From an uncultured Bacilli bacterium (GTDB lineage Bacteria > Bacillota_I > Bacilli_A > RFN20 > CAG-826): a stretch of DNA of 33,385 bases. Numbering within the stretch: position 1 is the stretch's first letter; every line of letters starts with the position of its first letter. The translations under genes were made by a program, and so were the position numbers. The stretch spans positions 1 through 33,385 of the forward strand of contig CAJOML010000020.1 in assembly GCA_905235705.1 (NCBI GenBank), in the 5' to 3' direction. Under the pieces are notes generated by a model. It searched no databases and was not told where the DNA came from. It saw only the letters and a list, made by a program, of their open reading frames with translations. Below are positions 3,103 to 18,187 of this stretch, in pieces.

Positions 3103-4181
3103 CTACGAAAGAACACCACCAGAATAAGTCACGCCATAATGAAGAAGAATGTTTTCATTCATCTTTTCCGTGTTAACCACTAAATCTTTACAAATACCAG
3201 TGAATCTTTTAAGCATATAGTCTAAAAGCGTACAGGCATCAGGTAAGATAATACGTTCCGCGGAGCTATGAGAAATATCTCTTTCATGCCATAAGTTATT
3301 ATCTTCTAAAGCCACATCAACATAGCTTCTCATTAAGCGTGCACAACCACAGATGTTTTCACAACCAATTGGATTCTTCTTATGCGGCATAGCGCTGCTA
3401 CCTTTTTGACCTTTAGAGAATGGTTCTTGAACTTCACCAATTTCACTACGAGAAAGGTGTCTAATTTCAGTGGCCATCTTTTCTAAACAAGAAGCGATTT
3501 GGGCTAAAGAGAAGATATAACCAGCATGTCTATCTCTAGATAAGACTTGTGTGGAAATTTTAGCGTATTCCATCCCTAACTTTTTAGCGACATATTCTTC
3601 CACTGCCATTGGGATATTCGCATAATTACCTACCGCACCACTTAATTTAATGACTTCGATATTCTTTCTTTCGTTTAAGAATCTTTCTTTGCAACGATTT
3701 AATTCATCAAACCATAAGGCCCATTTAAGACCAAAAGAAGTAATCTCAGCGTGCATACCATGTGTACGACCCATGATTGGTTGTTTTTCGTACTTTTTAG
3801 CCATTTTTCTAGTGACATCGATTAAATTATCTAAATCTTCTAAAAGAAGGCTATTCGCGGATTTTAAGGTTAAAGATTGCGCACTATCAACCACATCAGT
3901 GGATGTTAATGAATAATGGAACCATTTCTTTTCTTCTCCAAGTTGAAGAGAGATTGATCTAGTGAAGGCAATCACATCATGTTTAGTAATGGCTTCAATT
4001 TCTTCAATAGAGGCTAAATCAACATGGGCTTTTTAACAATAGCCTCATAATCTTTTTCAGGAATTAAACCTAACTTAAAGTAAGCTTCAATAACGGCTTC
4101 TTCGATAATGAGATAGTTGTTGAATCGATTTTCATCAGAGAAGATTTGTTCAAATTCTTTATGAGAATATCTTTTAATCAT
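3103..4181 (-). pseudogene. purB: Adenylosuccinate lyase, frameshifted and C-terminally truncated
   Basis: PurB cleaves SAICAR to AICAR and adenylosuccinate to AMP, releasing fumarate. The reading frame starts at ATG 4181 (MIKRYSHKEFEQIF...) with AAAGGA upstream, but shifts at a run of five A on the coding strand (4030-4034): with six, the frame KKAHVDLASIEEIEAI would join the rest. The family signature is intact: SSAMPHKKNPIGCENI, plus TSTDVVDS and GRTHGMHAE segments. Only about 360 codons exist; homologues have about 430-475. The frame stops right after GVTYSGGVLS and none of the three frames downstream restores the missing last 100 or so residues. It is the last gene of the pyrG-guaA-glnN-purB run. 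Likely non-functional unless the frameshift is a sequencing error, and truncated even then. Confidence 0.85.
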
Positions 4182-6304: not shown

Positions 6305-7843
6305 CTATTCATATTCGATAGTCGCCGGTGGCTTACTAGTGATGTCATAGACCACTCTATTCACACCTTTGACTTCATTGACTATTCTTCTACTCGCCTC
6401 ATCTAATACTCGATAAGGAAGTCTCACATAATTTGCAGTCATAAAGTCGTCTGTACTAACAGCGCGTAACGCGATAGCGTATTGATAAGTTCTTTTATCC
6501 CCCATCACACCAACGCTTTGCATATTAGTTAACACAGCGAAATATTGACTAATCTTTCTTTGATATTTGTTTTTAGCGATCACTTCTCTAAAGATATAAT
6601 CAGCTTCTTTAAGAATATCTAATTTCTCATAAGTGATATCTCCGATAATACGAACCGCTAAACCTGGACCTGGGAAAGGTTGTCGGAACACTAATGCTTC
6701 ATCTATATCCATTTCTAAACCAAGCTCTCTCACTTCGTCTTTAAATAATTAAGAAAGAGGTTCAATAATCTTTTTAAATGGTAGGTTTTCTGGTAAACCA
6801 CCAACGTTATGATGGCTCTTAATGGTGTTACCATTGATTGAACCTGATTCTATAACATCTGGATAGATTGTGCCTTGGGCTAAATAATCAATGCCTTTAA
6901 GTTCATTAGCGACCTTACTAAAAACATCAATAAATGTTTTACCAATGATATGTCTTTTCTTTTCTGGCTCTTTAACGCCTTCTAGAGCAGACATAAAATC
7001 TTTACGAGCATCGACTTTAATAAAATTAAGGTCGTATTTAGAGAACCGCTCAACGATTTCTTCAGTTTCGTTTTTTCTCATAAAGCCATGGTCAACATAA
7101 ACACATGTTAAATTTTTACCAATAGCGTGACTTAATAAGACTGCGGCTACGGAAGAATCAACACCACCAGAAAGGGCTAATAATACTTTCTTATCCCCGA
7201 CTTCTTTTTTTATTTCTTCAACGGCTTGTTTATAGTAGTCTTTCATTGACCAATCCCCTTTCGCGTGACAAACACGTTCAAGGAAAGCTTTAATCATTTC
7301 TTTACCACATTGTGTATGTTCCACTTCTGGGTGAAATTGCACACCATAGAAGTTCTTTTCTTCATTATAGATAGCAGCGTACTCGCAGTTTTTCGTGGTG
7401 GCACTCACTTTAAAATCACTAGGAATCTTTTCGACATGGTCACCATGACTCATCCAAGCAATACTTCTATTTGGTAAGCGTTTAAATAAGGGGCAGTGTG
7501 TGTTGAAGTGGGCCACTGCTTTACCATATTCTCTACCCTTATCGTCTTGGGCGGGAGTAACTTTACCACCAAGTAAAGTGACCATTAATTGCATGCCGTA
7601 GCAAATGCCTAAAACAGGAATACCTAATTCAAAGATTGAAGGATCAATTTTTGGGGAGTTTTCTAAATAGACACTACTAGGACCACCAGAAAGAACAATG
7701 CCTATTGGATTCTTACCCCGAATGAAAGTTGTCGAAGTAGTCCAAGGTAATACCTCGCAATAGACATTGTTCTGTCTAATCCTACGCGCGATGACTTCTG
7801 AATACTGCGCACCGAAGTCAATAACTAAGACAATTTCATGCAT
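6305..7843 (-). pseudogene. guaA: GMP synthase with in-frame nonsense codon
   Basis: GuaA converts XMP to GMP using glutamine amide nitrogen. The order is normal: class I glutamine amidotransferase (GICYGMQ with the nucleophile Cys, GVQFHPE with the His-Glu pair), ATP pyrophosphatase P-loop LALSGGVDSS, then the C-terminal dimerisation domain ([22 protein letters not shown]). Total length is 512 codons, as expected. A TAA at 6749-6751 interrupts the frame in the conserved stretch between PFKKIIEPLS and [10 protein letters not shown]; a single TTA-to-TAA change (Leu to stop) explains it. The frame is otherwise unbroken. It starts two bases after pyrG stops and ends seven bases before glnN. As read, it would give a 364-residue protein lacking the dimerisation domain. 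Either a nonsense mutation or a one-base sequence error; UAA recoding is unlikely. Confidence 0.9.
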
Positions 7844-10535: not shown

Positions 10536-10620
10536 TGGTGCGCCTGGCAGGATTTGAACCTGTACGCCGCAAAGCAATAGATCCTAAGTCTATCGTGTCT
10601 ACCAATTTCACCACAGGCGC
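10536..10620 (-). tRNA. tRNA-Leu (anticodon UAG)
   Basis: An 85-base class II tRNA with acceptor GCGCCTG/CAGGCGC, discriminator A, encoded CCA, a long variable arm, and an anticodon loop CTTAGGA on the stem ATAGA/TCTAT. The AT-rich block ends at the 3' end of this gene, a common integration point for mobile islands. Confidence 0.95.
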
Positions 10621-10681: not shown

Positions 10682-10708
10682 AAAAGAAAACCCATCACGA
10701 GGATGGGT
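10682..10708 (-). terminator. Terminator of the 43-codon gene
   Basis: ACCCATC pairs with GATGGGT around a five-base loop and is followed by TTTTCTTTT on the minus strand, 27 bases past the small gene's stop. Confidence 0.8.
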
Positions 10709-10735
10709 GTAACTTTGAGGAATCCCTCTGGTTAA

Positions 10736-10867
10736 TTAGAAGGAGTCACCCGTATTAGAGAGCTCCGCGGTATTGATATAAAGGCACTCGACAAGATTAT
10801 CGGCAATTTTATATATAAGCGGAGCCGACTCGGTTTTGACTTCTTCTTTCTCGGACTTGTAATCCAT
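10736..10867 (-). CDS. 43-residue small protein, unknown function
   Basis: A short open frame with unusually complete expression signals: AAAGGAGGT seven bases before ATG 10867, a promoter at 10924-10951 and a terminator at 10682-10708. The peptide has a charged N-terminal third (MDYKSEKEEVKTES), a mixed hydrophobic middle (PLIYKIADNLVECLY, with its only Cys at residue 28) and a polar tail ending TGDSF. There is no signal peptide and no clear transmembrane helix. I recognise no family. It stands alone between tRNA-Leu and the downstream end of the hydrolase operon, which runs in the same direction. It could be a regulatory micro-protein or a leader-type peptide precursor; no modification or export gene is adjacent, so neither is claimed. 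Confidence 0.6.
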   Translation of the reverse strand: MDYKSEKEEVKTESAPLIYKIADNLVECLYINTAELSNTGDSF

Positions 10868-10898
10868 AGCAAGTACCTCCTTTCTAGCAATTTTTAAG

Positions 10899-10916
10899 CC
10901 TCAATAATTCTTGAGG
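10899..10916 (-). promoter_or_regulatory. Hairpin in the 5' leader of the 43-codon gene
   Basis: CCTCAA and TTGAGG form a perfect six-pair stem with a six-base loop, between the promoter and the SD. No T tract follows, so it is more likely a stabilising or regulatory leader structure than a terminator. Confidence 0.4.
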
Positions 10917-10923
10917 ACCGATA

Positions 10924-10951
10924 ACTATAGACCTTTTTTATTTTGTTGCAA
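10924..10951 (-). promoter_or_regulatory. Promoter of the 43-codon gene
   Basis: TTGCAA, 16-base spacer, TATAGT on the minus strand, giving a leader of about 50 bases. Confidence 0.65.
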
Positions 10952-11005: not shown

Positions 11006-12022
11006 TTATTCAGTCAAAAAGGAGGTGATTTTGGAAAAAACTTGATCAGAAAGCTGACTTGTTTTTTCTTTATCGATGGAGGCAAGGAAAACCTTTTTGT
11101 CTTCACTGCGTTCTTTAAGCTTAGATTCCACCACTTCTTTGACATAATCTAGCGAAACGCGGCTTCTCCATGGACCAGCATGGCCAACATTTGGCAAGGT
11201 TAAGGTTGTTACATTAGGCAAATCTTTAGCTCTTCGATAAAGGCTATTGCCATCGATTTTGACCGAATTATCTTCTTCGCCATGGATGACCAAGGCTTTG
11301 GTGTTGCTTACCTTTAATCCATCAAAAGCAGATAAAGAAGCGTCTTTCCCTTGAACAATATAGGAATCAAGAGCAAAGCTAGGATAAGAAAAATCGGCTA
11401 TCCCCCCAGCGTAAGACCTAGCATATTCCATCATCGTATCTAAAGGGATATCAAAAGCGGAAAACGTAATCACCTTATCCGCCTTTACCCCTAATTGAAG
11501 CGAAGCGGCAATCCCATACCCGCCCCAAGAATGGCCAACCATGATAAATTGGTCTTCCAGGAGGTTTTGGCTTGTTAAATAGTTGAAACATGATGCCACG
11601 TCATGCGCGCTTTGGGCCAAAGACTTAAAGGAAGAACCTCCGCTATTCCCACAACAAGTCAAATCCAAAGCGAAAACGTCATACCCTTGGTCAAGAAACC
11701 ATTGTTGATATTGAGCGTCGTCTGAATCCGAATTCGAGCCCATCCCATGGACGGCTAAAACGAGCCCTTTAGGTGAAAAGGCAGAATAGAGATAGCCTCT
11801 TAACGTATTATTCCCAGAAAGAAAGGAATGCTCGCTTCGAGTAGATAAAGAAGGATAGTCGCTTCTGACTTTATAAATATAGGCAATATCTTCGTTGACC
11901 TCACGCCGAGAAAATACAACCGCGCTTACCGCCCCATAAGCAATCGCGCCGCCACCAAAATAAAGGACGGTCAAAGCAAGCCCCGTAATCAAAATCGTTT
12001 TAACCAGGGACCTCGTTTTCAT
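11006..12022 (-). CDS. Membrane-anchored alpha/beta hydrolase
   Basis: A 338-residue protein with an N-terminal transmembrane anchor (about residues 10-33) and a serine-hydrolase fold outside it. HGMGSNSDSDD (around 92) gives the oxyanion hole, GHSWGGYG (around 163) the nucleophile elbow with the catalytic Ser, HGEEDNSV the acid region and GHAGPW the catalytic His. This arrangement is typical of extracellular-facing esterases or lipases related to the YqiK/BAAT-type hydrolases; the substrate is not predictable. It overlaps the stop of the acetyltransferase gene by four bases and is the last gene of the run that begins at trmL. No terminator is visible behind it, so readthrough into the 43-codon gene is possible. 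Confidence 0.85.
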   Translation of the reverse strand: MKTRSLVKTILITGLALTVLYFGGGAIAYGAVSAVVFSRREVNEDIAYIYKVRSDYPSLSTRSEHSFLSGNNTLRGYLYSAFSPKGLVLAVHGMGSNSDSDDAQYQQWFLDQGYDVFALDLTCCGNSGGSSFKSLAQSAHDVASCFNYLTSQNLLEDQFIMVGHSWGGYGIAASLQLGVKADKVITFSAFDIPLDTMMEYARSYAGGIADFSYPSFALDSYIVQGKDASLSAFDGLKVSNTKALVIHGEEDNSVKIDGNSLYRRAKDLPNVTTLTLPNVGHAGPWRSRVSLDYVKEVVESKLKERSEDKKVFLASIDKEKTSQLSDQVFSKITSFLTE

Positions 12023-12546
12023 TTGTATTGGTAATATTTGAAGTTCTCACCTAATAGATAGCGCATCAAATTCAGATGGTCTTCCCTTTTCACCTCACAG
12101 CCATGCGCAAGGAAAATATAGGTGACTCCATATTCGTTAATTTTCTCGCCACTAGGGATAAACCCGTGACGCTTATAAAAGCCGACTCGCCTTAACCTCA
12201 TTGGATAATCTTTATATTCGGGCGCAGGATCATCGGCGAGCAAATAACATCTTTGATGAGGATGATCGGCAAGAAAATCATCGACGATTTTTCCGCCATA
12301 ACCAAGATTACGTTTGCTAGGTCCGACGGCTAAAAAGAAAAGATAAGCAAGGTCATCTCGCTCCAAATCGATGCGAAGTCCAATGAATTCATTTCCCTCT
12401 TTAACCTCGCAAAACGCAGCTTTTTCTAGCGAAACCATCACTTCATAAGAAGGTCGTTCATCTTCGGTAAACGCGGTCAAAAACAGGTTTTTAACCTTAT
12501 CGATATCTTGGCTTTGAGGATTCAAAAGGCGATAGGTAAGAGACAT
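12019..12546 (-). CDS. GNAT-family N-acetyltransferase
   Basis: A 175-residue protein with the GNAT core: an AVGPSKRNLGYGGKIVDDFL segment supplies the R/Q-x-x-G-x-G/A acetyl-CoA-binding loop and its helix, preceded by the LAYLFFLAV strand. A later FYKRHGF motif is typical of the family's beta-bulge and helix region. It transfers an acetyl group from acetyl-CoA to an amine; the acceptor is unknown. It shares one base with the rarA stop (TAATG) and overlaps the hydrolase gene downstream by four bases, so these three genes are translationally coupled. Confidence 0.85.
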   Translation of the reverse strand: MSLTYRLLNPQSQDIDKVKNLFLTAFTEDERPSYEVMVSLEKAAFCEVKEGNEFIGLRIDLERDDLAYLFFLAVGPSKRNLGYGGKIVDDFLADHPHQRCYLLADDPAPEYKDYPMRLRRVGFYKRHGFIPSGEKINEYGVTYIFLAHGCEVKREDHLNLMRYLLGENFKYYQYK

Positions 12547-13811
12547 TATTTGCCTTTCTTTAATTTGGCTAGGTCGCTACTTCTGCCATTAGCCTTCATG
12601 CGATTATAGTTCTCGGTTAAGGCTTTCTCGTAAGTGGAAGAATTCCATGACTTAAAGAATTGGGTGTCTTTCCATTCGTCGGGTAGATATTGGATTTTCT
12701 CCCATAAGTCAGGGCGATCATAGGGGTATTTATCCGCTTCCTTCATATTTACAGGCGTGAGTTTCAAATAATCCTGGACAAGGAAAGGCTTCTTCGCGGC
12801 AAAAGCCATGGCTTCTTGGATAGCTAGGCACCCGGCTTTTGAATGAGGGGATAAACATAAATCGACGACCGCGTCGCCAAGGGGGATGACCGCCTCGGGA
12901 AAACCTACCTGCTCGGCCGCGGCAATGGCCAGTTGGGTACGCATGACGGCATTAGGATTGCCTAGACCGATATCTTCATAAGCGGTGACAAGCAACCGAC
13001 GCTTAATCGAATCCAAATCGCCGGCAATACATAAACGGGCCAAATAATATAAGGCGGCATCGACATCGCACCCACGAATCGATTTCTGCAAGGCGGAGAC
13101 GGAATCATAATGTTCTTCTTCGTCTTTATCCATCGCTAAATTCGGAACGGCTTCAATTGAGGAAATCATCGCCTCATCTACTTCGTCAGCATTATCAAAA
13201 GCAACCGAAGCAACTTCTAAAATGTTTAAAGCGAAGCGCATGTCCCCGCCAGAAAGCCTAGCGATGGTCGAATACGCTTTCTCGCTAACTTTCGGCGTCC
13301 CATTTAAGCCGCTAGAAGAATCGTGGGCACGGATTAAGCCTGTGACGATATCTTCTTCGCTTAAGGGTTTGACTTCTAATAAGCGGCAACGCGACCTTAT
13401 CGCGCGGTTTAAAGAAATATATGGATTCGTGGTGGTTGCCCCGATAAGGAAGAAAGTTCCGTTTTCGACATAAGGGAGCAAGAAATCTTGTTTGGCTTTA
13501 TCTAAACGATGGACTTCATCCATGATGAGGATGGTAGGTCGCCAAATCTTAGCTTCTTCGACCGCCCCTTCCATATCTTTTTTGCTGCACGTGACCGCGT
13601 TTAAGGACACGAAATGGATGCCTAAAGAGCGAGCATAGGCTTCACCAATTGTGGTTTTACCAGTCCCTGGAGGGCCAAAGAAAATCATCGAGAAGGGCGT
13701 TTTCTTTTCCACTGATTTGCGTAAAAAAGACCCTTCACCGACCAAATGGGTTTGCCCGATGACTTCATCTAAGGTTTTTGGGCGCATGCGGAATGCGAGC
13801 GGTTCTCTCAT
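12546..13811 (-). CDS. rarA: Replication-associated recombination AAA+ ATPase RarA
   Basis: A 421-residue AAA+ protein of the RarA/MgsA/WRNIP1 family, which acts at stalled replication forks. It begins with the family's RMRPKTLDEVIGQTHLVGEG segment, has Walker A GPPGTGKT (residues 46-53), Walker B ILIMDEVH (94-101), a sensor-1 GATTTNP and the C-terminal helical domain with the conserved GCDVDAALYYLARL and EDIGLGNPNA motifs and DRPDLW near the end. Full length. It starts three bases after the hydrogenase gene ends and overlaps the acetyltransferase start by one base. No link to hydrogen metabolism is known, so this is co-location in a housekeeping-type run. Confidence 0.95.
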   Translation of the reverse strand: MREPLAFRMRPKTLDEVIGQTHLVGEGSFLRKSVEKKTPFSMIFFGPPGTGKTTIGEAYARSLGIHFVSLNAVTCSKKDMEGAVEEAKIWRPTILIMDEVHRLDKAKQDFLLPYVENGTFFLIGATTTNPYISLNRAIRSRCRLLEVKPLSEEDIVTGLIRAHDSSSGLNGTPKVSEKAYSTIARLSGGDMRFALNILEVASVAFDNADEVDEAMISSIEAVPNLAMDKDEEEHYDSVSALQKSIRGCDVDAALYYLARLCIAGDLDSIKRRLLVTAYEDIGLGNPNAVMRTQLAIAAAEQVGFPEAVIPLGDAVVDLCLSPHSKAGCLAIQEAMAFAAKKPFLVQDYLKLTPVNMKEADKYPYDRPDLWEKIQYLPDEWKDTQFFKSWNSSTYEKALTENYNRMKANGRSSDLAKLKKGK

Positions 13812-16926: not shown

Positions 16927-17805
16927 CTATTTAACCTCTGGGTAAGCTTTGTCAAGAATCAATTCTTTTCTAAGCTTTATAATTTTCTTGAGAAAATCTT
17001 TTTGTAACTGAGTTAATTGTTCCACATCGTCAATCAGTGAATTGATTTCTTCTAAATTGACATGTGGGACAATTCTTTTAATAGCCTCATTGCATCCTTT
17101 ATATTCTAACGAGGTAATCATTTGATAATAATTGCCACGCTTTCCATTCACTAAAATAGCTGATGTTGGCATATCATAAACTCGTGCATTCATTTCGGCT
17201 TTAGAAGATATAACTTTTTTAATTAATTCATCATCTATCTGAGGAAATAAAGCGGAACCACAATCAAAAATTGGAGCAATCTTCATTTCGTCAGTTTCCT
17301 GGTTATATAAGAATCCCCAATTGCCATTATGTCTATCCCAGTTACCAATGAAAGCATCAGTAACAAACATGTTCCAAAAATGCTCTTCTAATTCTTTCGG
17401 ATCAACCGCAGTCTGTTTTTGAATTGTATCAAGAATGTCAGATAATTCAGTTCCATATCCGTTAGAAGCAGAATCAATAATTTGGTTTTTAACGGAGGCA
17501 AAATCAACGATTGTGGTATTCGGTGAAGTAAAATCTTTGCAAGCCACAACAGTTCTAACTTTGCCATGGTATTCTTATTCTCCTAATAATGTATCTTGAG
17601 CTTTTATTCCAAGCATATTAAAAATATGACATCCAAGATATTCGGAAGTACAACTATTTGTATATGAAAGATTTGGATTCTTTAAAGCGTGCATAGGGAG
17701 TTTAAGCATATAGAGTTCGTTATTGTAAACAACAGAAAGTTTACTTCCGTTTGCACCACCGTAAGCCTTTTTTCTAGTTGGTAAATTAGTAAAATCAATC
17801 ATCAT
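16927..17805 (-). pseudogene. HipA-like kinase (toxin) with in-frame TAA
   Basis: Two frames in the same register (76 codons from 17805 and 206 codons ending at 16927) are split by TAA at 17575-17577; the bases between code for EYHGKVRTVVACKDF, which continues the protein sensibly. The first part has the GGANGSKLSVVYNNELYMLKLP nucleotide-binding hairpin of HipA-type kinases; the second has the catalytic loop GNWDRHNGNWGFLYN and the metal site IFDCGSALF. HipA toxins phosphorylate glutamyl-tRNA synthetase or other targets to stop growth. The upstream HTH gene, nine bases away, is the expected antitoxin. As read the kinase core is cut in two, so the toxin should be inactive unless the second half starts again at GTG 17547 or the TAA is an error. 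AT-rich against its neighbours. Confidence 0.75.
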
Positions 17806-17813
17806 AAATCCTC

Positions 17814-18187
17814 CTAAAAATATCTCGCTCTTAATCTATCTGCTTGCTCTTTAGAAATAAGATGTTCTACTTCTGCAACGTTGATAGAACTATTCAATTG
17901 GTCGCTATAACAATCCACTAAAGTGCAATCTTTACGAATTGCTTTTCTATATTCAGTAATGGCATCCACCAAAAATTCTGGTAATGATGTTTTTGCCTCT
18001 TCTCTTTCTAGAGAAAGCAAATCTTCTATTGATACTCCCAAGCTCTTAGAAATTGCTAATAGTGTTTTACCAGAACATTCTAAAATATCAGCTTTTCCTG
18101 AAGAAATATCAGTTAAAGTTGTTTTAGGTACTCCGCTATCTCGAGACAAGGAATAAACTGTAGGGCAAGTAAATCTAAGAATGTCAT
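17814..18187 (-). pseudogene. HipB-like XRE antitoxin, apparently frameshifted near its start
   Basis: The frame ending at 17814 encodes an XRE-type helix-turn-helix (SRDSGVPKTTLTDISSGK) and a helical tail, as in antitoxins paired with short HipA-like kinases. Read upstream, the same frame continues ILRFTCPTVYSL, the natural first helix, but then meets no start codon and stops at TAA. The only ATG there (18185-18187) is one base out of frame: ATGACATT would join correctly if it were ATGACAATT. A TTG at 18147-18149 could start a shorter protein lacking helix 1, with no SD. Promoter and operator are directly upstream. I read this as a single-base loss, by mutation or by sequence error. Confidence 0.6.

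Follow-up and report, generated by a model that had tools for sequence, protein, structure and literature searches.

Two small proteins of Bacillus subtilis, SR1P and SR7P, both of 39 amino acids, bind GapA and the glycolytic enzyme enolase, respectively (PMC8152036). SR1P is highly conserved and encoded on the short stand-alone transcript SR1, and CcpN and CcpA repress its gene when glycolytic conditions prevail; SR7P is encoded by an antisense dual-function RNA (PMC8152036). In the same bacterium, cre boxes located upstream of the -35 hexamer generally activate transcription, as for ackA, pta and ilvB, with the lev operon as a stated exception, and the action of CcpA depends on the face of the helix (PMC3463425). 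The site of these three genes, which encode metabolic enzymes, is a palindrome of the TGNAANCGNTTNCA type, placed at a fixed distance and on one helix face (PMC3463425).

Here, we analyzed a small-protein cassette in a 33,385-nucleotide stretch of DNA (the window) from an uncultured Bacilli bacterium. The cassette resembles SR1/SR1P in its predicted short stand-alone transcript, its peptide of about 40 residues, the putative catabolite-type control of most of its relatives and its fixed genomic place within one lineage. However, its peptides diverge fast, unlike SR1P, and the operator of most of its relatives lies in an activator position, whereas the gene of SR1P is repressed. The peptide is also similar in size to SR7P, although it is not encoded by an antisense RNA of the SR7P kind. 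The cassette protein would work like SR1P or SR7P at most by analogy. With ackA, pta and ilvB, the family shares the type and placement of the upstream site, but it encodes a small protein instead of a metabolic enzyme, the copy in the window lacks the site, and the role of CcpA is putative.

A preliminary description of the locus had placed a promoter, a leader hairpin, a strong Shine-Dalgarno (SD) sequence, an open frame and a terminator within 270 bases. All of these elements were indeed found where expected, on the minus strand (Table 1). The promoter hexamers are separated by a 16-nucleotide spacer, and the leader hairpin begins 4 nucleotides past the -10 box. Consensus scans only mildly exceeded shuffled sequences: they returned 7 promoter-like sites where 1.8 were expected, and 2 terminator-like sites where 0.8 were expected. 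An isolated consensus match counts for little, so the case rests on relatives, in which the arrangement is conserved as a whole; it is this that lifts the cassette above chance.

Table 1. Features of the cassette, its neighbors and other loci of the window.
Feature	Position	Strand	Basis or remark
Whole single-gene transcription unit	10951-10682	minus	
-35 hexamer TTGCAA	10946..10951	minus	Promoter scan; aligned promoters of relatives
-10 hexamer TATAGT	10924..10929	minus	Sequence reading; promoter scan; aligned promoters of relatives
Transcription start (expected)	near 10917		
5'-terminal leader hairpin GGTCCTCAAGAATTATTGAGGCT	10897..10919	minus	Fold; hairpin at same place in relatives
Shine-Dalgarno AAAGGAGGT	10875..10883	minus	Sequence reading; strong SD in relatives
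43-codon gene MDYKSEKEEVKTESAPLIYKIADNLVECLYINTAELSNTGDSF plus stop	10736..10867	minus	Frame (ATG at 10867, TAA at 10738-10736); homologues; dN/dS; residues 17-37 predicted helix
Intrinsic terminator ACCCATCCTCGTGATGGGT plus T-rich tail	10682..10708	minus	Terminator scan; stem 10708-10690, tail to about 10682
Promoter-like site of tRNA-Leu	10670-10642		
tRNA-Leu	10536..10620	minus	Neighbor; anticodon printed as tag
Alpha/beta hydrolase gene	11006-12022		Between rarA and cassette
GNAT gene	12019-12546		Between rarA and cassette
rarA (MgsA-type AAA ATPase)	12546..13811	minus	Positional anchor of cassette in relatives
guaA (GMP synthase), split	6305-7843	minus	Amidotransferase and ATP-pyrophosphatase part 7843-6749; C-terminal domain 6733-6305
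Adenylosuccinate-lyase-type frame	3103-3975	minus	Lyase_1 profile
Group II intron	29262-30983	minus	Reverse transcriptase with maturase domain; D1-D4 RNA matches
HipA-like C-terminal domain protein and small Cro/C1-type HTH protein	16927-18149	minus	Possible HipBA-like pair

Several other loci of the window were noted in passing. The gene for GMP synthase is split in two frames by an apparent frameshift near 6750, which reflects either an assembly error or a damaged gene. The match of the adenylosuccinate-lyase-type frame to Lyase_1 starts only at position 97, and its N-terminal part is therefore missing or in another frame. A group II intron and a HipA-like protein encoded near a small HTH protein are also present.

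To establish the coding status of the frame, we searched 96 genomes drawn from the window's genus, family and order and found homologous frames in four congeners. A profile of the five frames added five genomes, giving nine other genomes of the genus recovered by sequence, all in frame, while a ten-member profile returned nothing further in the family. The nearest relative of the window peptide, in genome G001, is 70% identical. Across a wider set, dN/dS or pN/pS was between 0 and 0.52 in 20 of 20 pairs, not all of them independent (for example, 0.24 for the window versus G001 and 0.12 for G008 versus G009). By these substitution patterns, the protein is under purifying selection. The frame, its start, the SD and the terminator are kept in relatives, and synonymous changes outnumber non-synonymous ones, in line with the earlier proposal of a stand-alone small-protein gene; the case that would have spoken against it, an RNA kept in relatives whose frame is not, does not hold. 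We are therefore nearly certain that the 43-residue frame encodes a small protein from a transcription unit of its own. That the frame is short and matches no family would also suit a fortuitous frame between genes or a non-coding RNA gene, but the conserved frame, start and SD and the ratios below 1 in each pair leave very little room for either. In a search for an RNA gene, Rfam gave no match at the gathering score, and a permissive search gave chance-level matches only.

Position revealed more members of the family than sequence did. Of the 23 genomes of the genus that were inspected, nearly all had a frame directly after rarA that was preceded by a strong SD and measured 41 to 53 codons. 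In a second genus of the family (g24), the cassette followed rarA in 17 of 18 loci, and with the same filter it followed rarA in none of 41 loci from other genera of the family. A 33-member profile run over the order re-found by sequence most of the positional members and added two loci of the genus, one in G025 and a second copy in G020. The two copies of G020 (L196 and L203) lie one next to tRNA-Leu and one at a contig end, neither of them beside rarA in the stretches seen. In profile searches over the order and a class sample, the sole further plausible member came from a different family (G095, E 0.0075), where an operator-like site, an SD and a terminator-like sequence accompany the frame and support it. 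Weak matches in G092 and G081 were rejected, being antisense inside larger frames. Position and profile searches combined, the cassette was found in 24 of the 31 genomes of the window's genus, in 17 genomes of g24 and in G095. Named records group the genus of the window with Candidatus Alloenteromonas pullicola and pullistercoris, and also with metagenome assemblies of Bacilli from rumen or gut. The cassettes of the two genera are very probably orthologous to one another, the orthology of the most distant members leaning more on position and cassette anatomy than on sequence.

Most related cassettes lie directly 3' of rarA, and in many of them the same tRNA-Leu, which has a promoter-like site of its own in the window, comes next. 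This place would be accounted for by a peptide acting on or with RarA, for instance through a C-terminal-Phe tail like that of SSB. SSB tails bind RarA, and 19 of 42 peptides end in Phe, but the other 23 do not. Furthermore, cassette and rarA are not adjacent in the window, G001, G025, G020 and G095, with other genes intervening in the window and G001, and G022 carries rarA directly followed by tRNA-Leu with no cassette between them, an apparent empty or lost site (L201). Together with the cassette's own promoter and terminator, this makes a role alongside RarA improbable.

The peptides themselves vary widely. Those of the window, G001 and G018 are 47 to 70% identical to one another, and the RarA of the window is 86 to 89% identical to those of G001 and G018. 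In the family, the peptides are 37 to 54 residues long and their net charge ranges from -12 to +6, the N-terminal half swinging from basic to acidic between members. A variable charged tail precedes a common C-terminal stretch, in which a motif of roughly F/L-x-D/E-x-L/I leads into small and aromatic residues. For the window peptide a single helix was predicted (Table 1), with a mean pLDDT of 87 in residues 21-30 and low confidence elsewhere. Only this predicted C-terminal helix after a charged tail seems to be common to the peptides. The protein diverges fast, but the regulatory anatomy stays frozen.

As the preliminary description had anticipated, the peptide matched no family: Pfam, NCBIfam, PHROG, PADLOC and the PDB gave nothing for the window peptide, and the 33 family members had no meaningful score against Pfam. 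Pfam contains an SR1P model, and membership in the SR1P family, characterized by GapA binding and modulation of RNase J1, was rejected on these Pfam and NCBIfam results. No phage match to the peptide was found, and a fold search with the predicted structure, a low-confidence model, returned no match. A type I toxin-antitoxin peptide was rejected as well, the peptides being hydrophilic and charged, unlike the hydrophobic membrane-spanning peptides of those systems, which are paired with an antisense RNA.

We then compared the untranslated elements. A strong SD was present in 39 of 39 cassettes and a terminator in 34 of 39. A leader hairpin, defined as at least 5 pairs and a start within about ten bases of the -10 box, was seen in 34 of the 39, whereas only 8.4% of leaders had one after shuffling. 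Hairpin sequences varied, the pairing ability being kept and the sequence not. In the leaders of 38 cassettes, pyrimidines nearly always prevail in the 5' arm and purines in the 3' arm; among 31 distinct 5' arms, 29 are more than 60% pyrimidine.

Such an arm could regulate translation in cis, by pairing either with its own 3' arm, leaving the SD free, or with the SD, which would then be hidden. Indeed, the 5' arm is paired to the SD region in several minimum-energy folds (e.g., G242, G053 and G244). However, only 5 of 38 cassettes showed more of this pairing than their shuffled arms did (5% level), and we rejected an SD-sequestering switch as not significant; only a slim likelihood is left for it. 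Alternatively, the transcript could be mainly a base-pairing small RNA that also encodes a peptide, as SR1 does in B. subtilis. Its short length, its own terminator, the catabolite-type operator of relatives and the pyrimidine-rich 5' arms, which could pair with the SDs of other mRNAs, would agree with such a dual function. Against this, no conserved base-pairing seed was seen, because the hairpin is conserved in pairing ability and not in sequence; there is no Rfam match, and the protein is under purifying selection. We regard a mainly RNA-based function as unlikely, though less so than the cis switch, and favor the reading of the transcript as an mRNA.

Upstream of the promoter, a CcpA-type operator palindrome with at least 9 of 10 defined bases was found in 30 of 37 cassettes, compared to 0.5% of shuffled upstream regions. 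Relative to the estimated start, 28 of these 30 cassettes have its center at -53.5 to -55.5, and the remaining 2 have it one helical turn closer, at -43.5. By comparison with the B. subtilis sites, an operator near -54 would have the geometry of an activator. Of the 31 genomes of the genus, 30 encode CcpA-like proteins, which all score below the TIGR01481 cut-off. HPr kinase was not found in the genus, but the search appears to be insensitive: it was positive in just 3 of the 14 control genomes, and B. subtilis was not one of these three. On balance, we consider transcriptional activation by the operator rather probable in those relatives that carry it.

The window copy differs in this respect. 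Its best operator match has 7 of 10 bases and that of G001 has 6 of 10, neither above chance, and G018 has only TGAAAAATTTTTCA, out of the usual position. These three form the closest group, and all are without an operator at the usual place; over the whole window, no site with one mismatch or fewer was found. Because the window copy has no operator, catabolite activation is a statement on the family and not on this copy.

Taken together, the 43-residue protein is most likely a small soluble regulator that is catabolite-activated in most relatives. A sigma-A-type promoter would yield a transcript of about 210 to 240 nucleotides with a 5' hairpin, a strong SD, the frame of the soluble protein and its own terminator. 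A hairpin at the extreme 5' end can stabilize mRNAs in Bacillota. Here it would shield the mRNA from 5'-end-dependent decay, and the peptide would therefore be abundant; high expression of the cassette is plausible from its signals. In most relatives, a LacI-family regulator, CcpA or CcpA-like, would bind about 54 bp upstream of the start and activate transcription when sugar is plentiful, whereas the site would have been lost or replaced in the window copy. The product may consist of a charged, disordered tail and a C-terminal helix that docks on a cellular partner. We would give this docking on a protein partner, suggested by analogy, somewhat less than even chances, and the explanation as a whole, from stable monocistronic mRNA through catabolite activation in most relatives to helix docking, about even ones.

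Genes of this kind escape annotation pipelines and sequence searches, being both too short and too divergent, and much of the cassette family came to light only because its location and its regulatory anatomy are fixed. The same approach, looking for a conserved cassette around a diverging product, could uncover other small proteins. Through the operator geometry, catabolite activation in uncultured Bacilli becomes directly testable. If abundant, the product would be a protein linked to carbon status that has been overlooked in common gut bacteria. We tentatively suggest that a frozen regulatory anatomy, around a protein rewritten down to its C-terminal helix, may mark an abundant carbon-status-dependent regulator of gut Bacilli.
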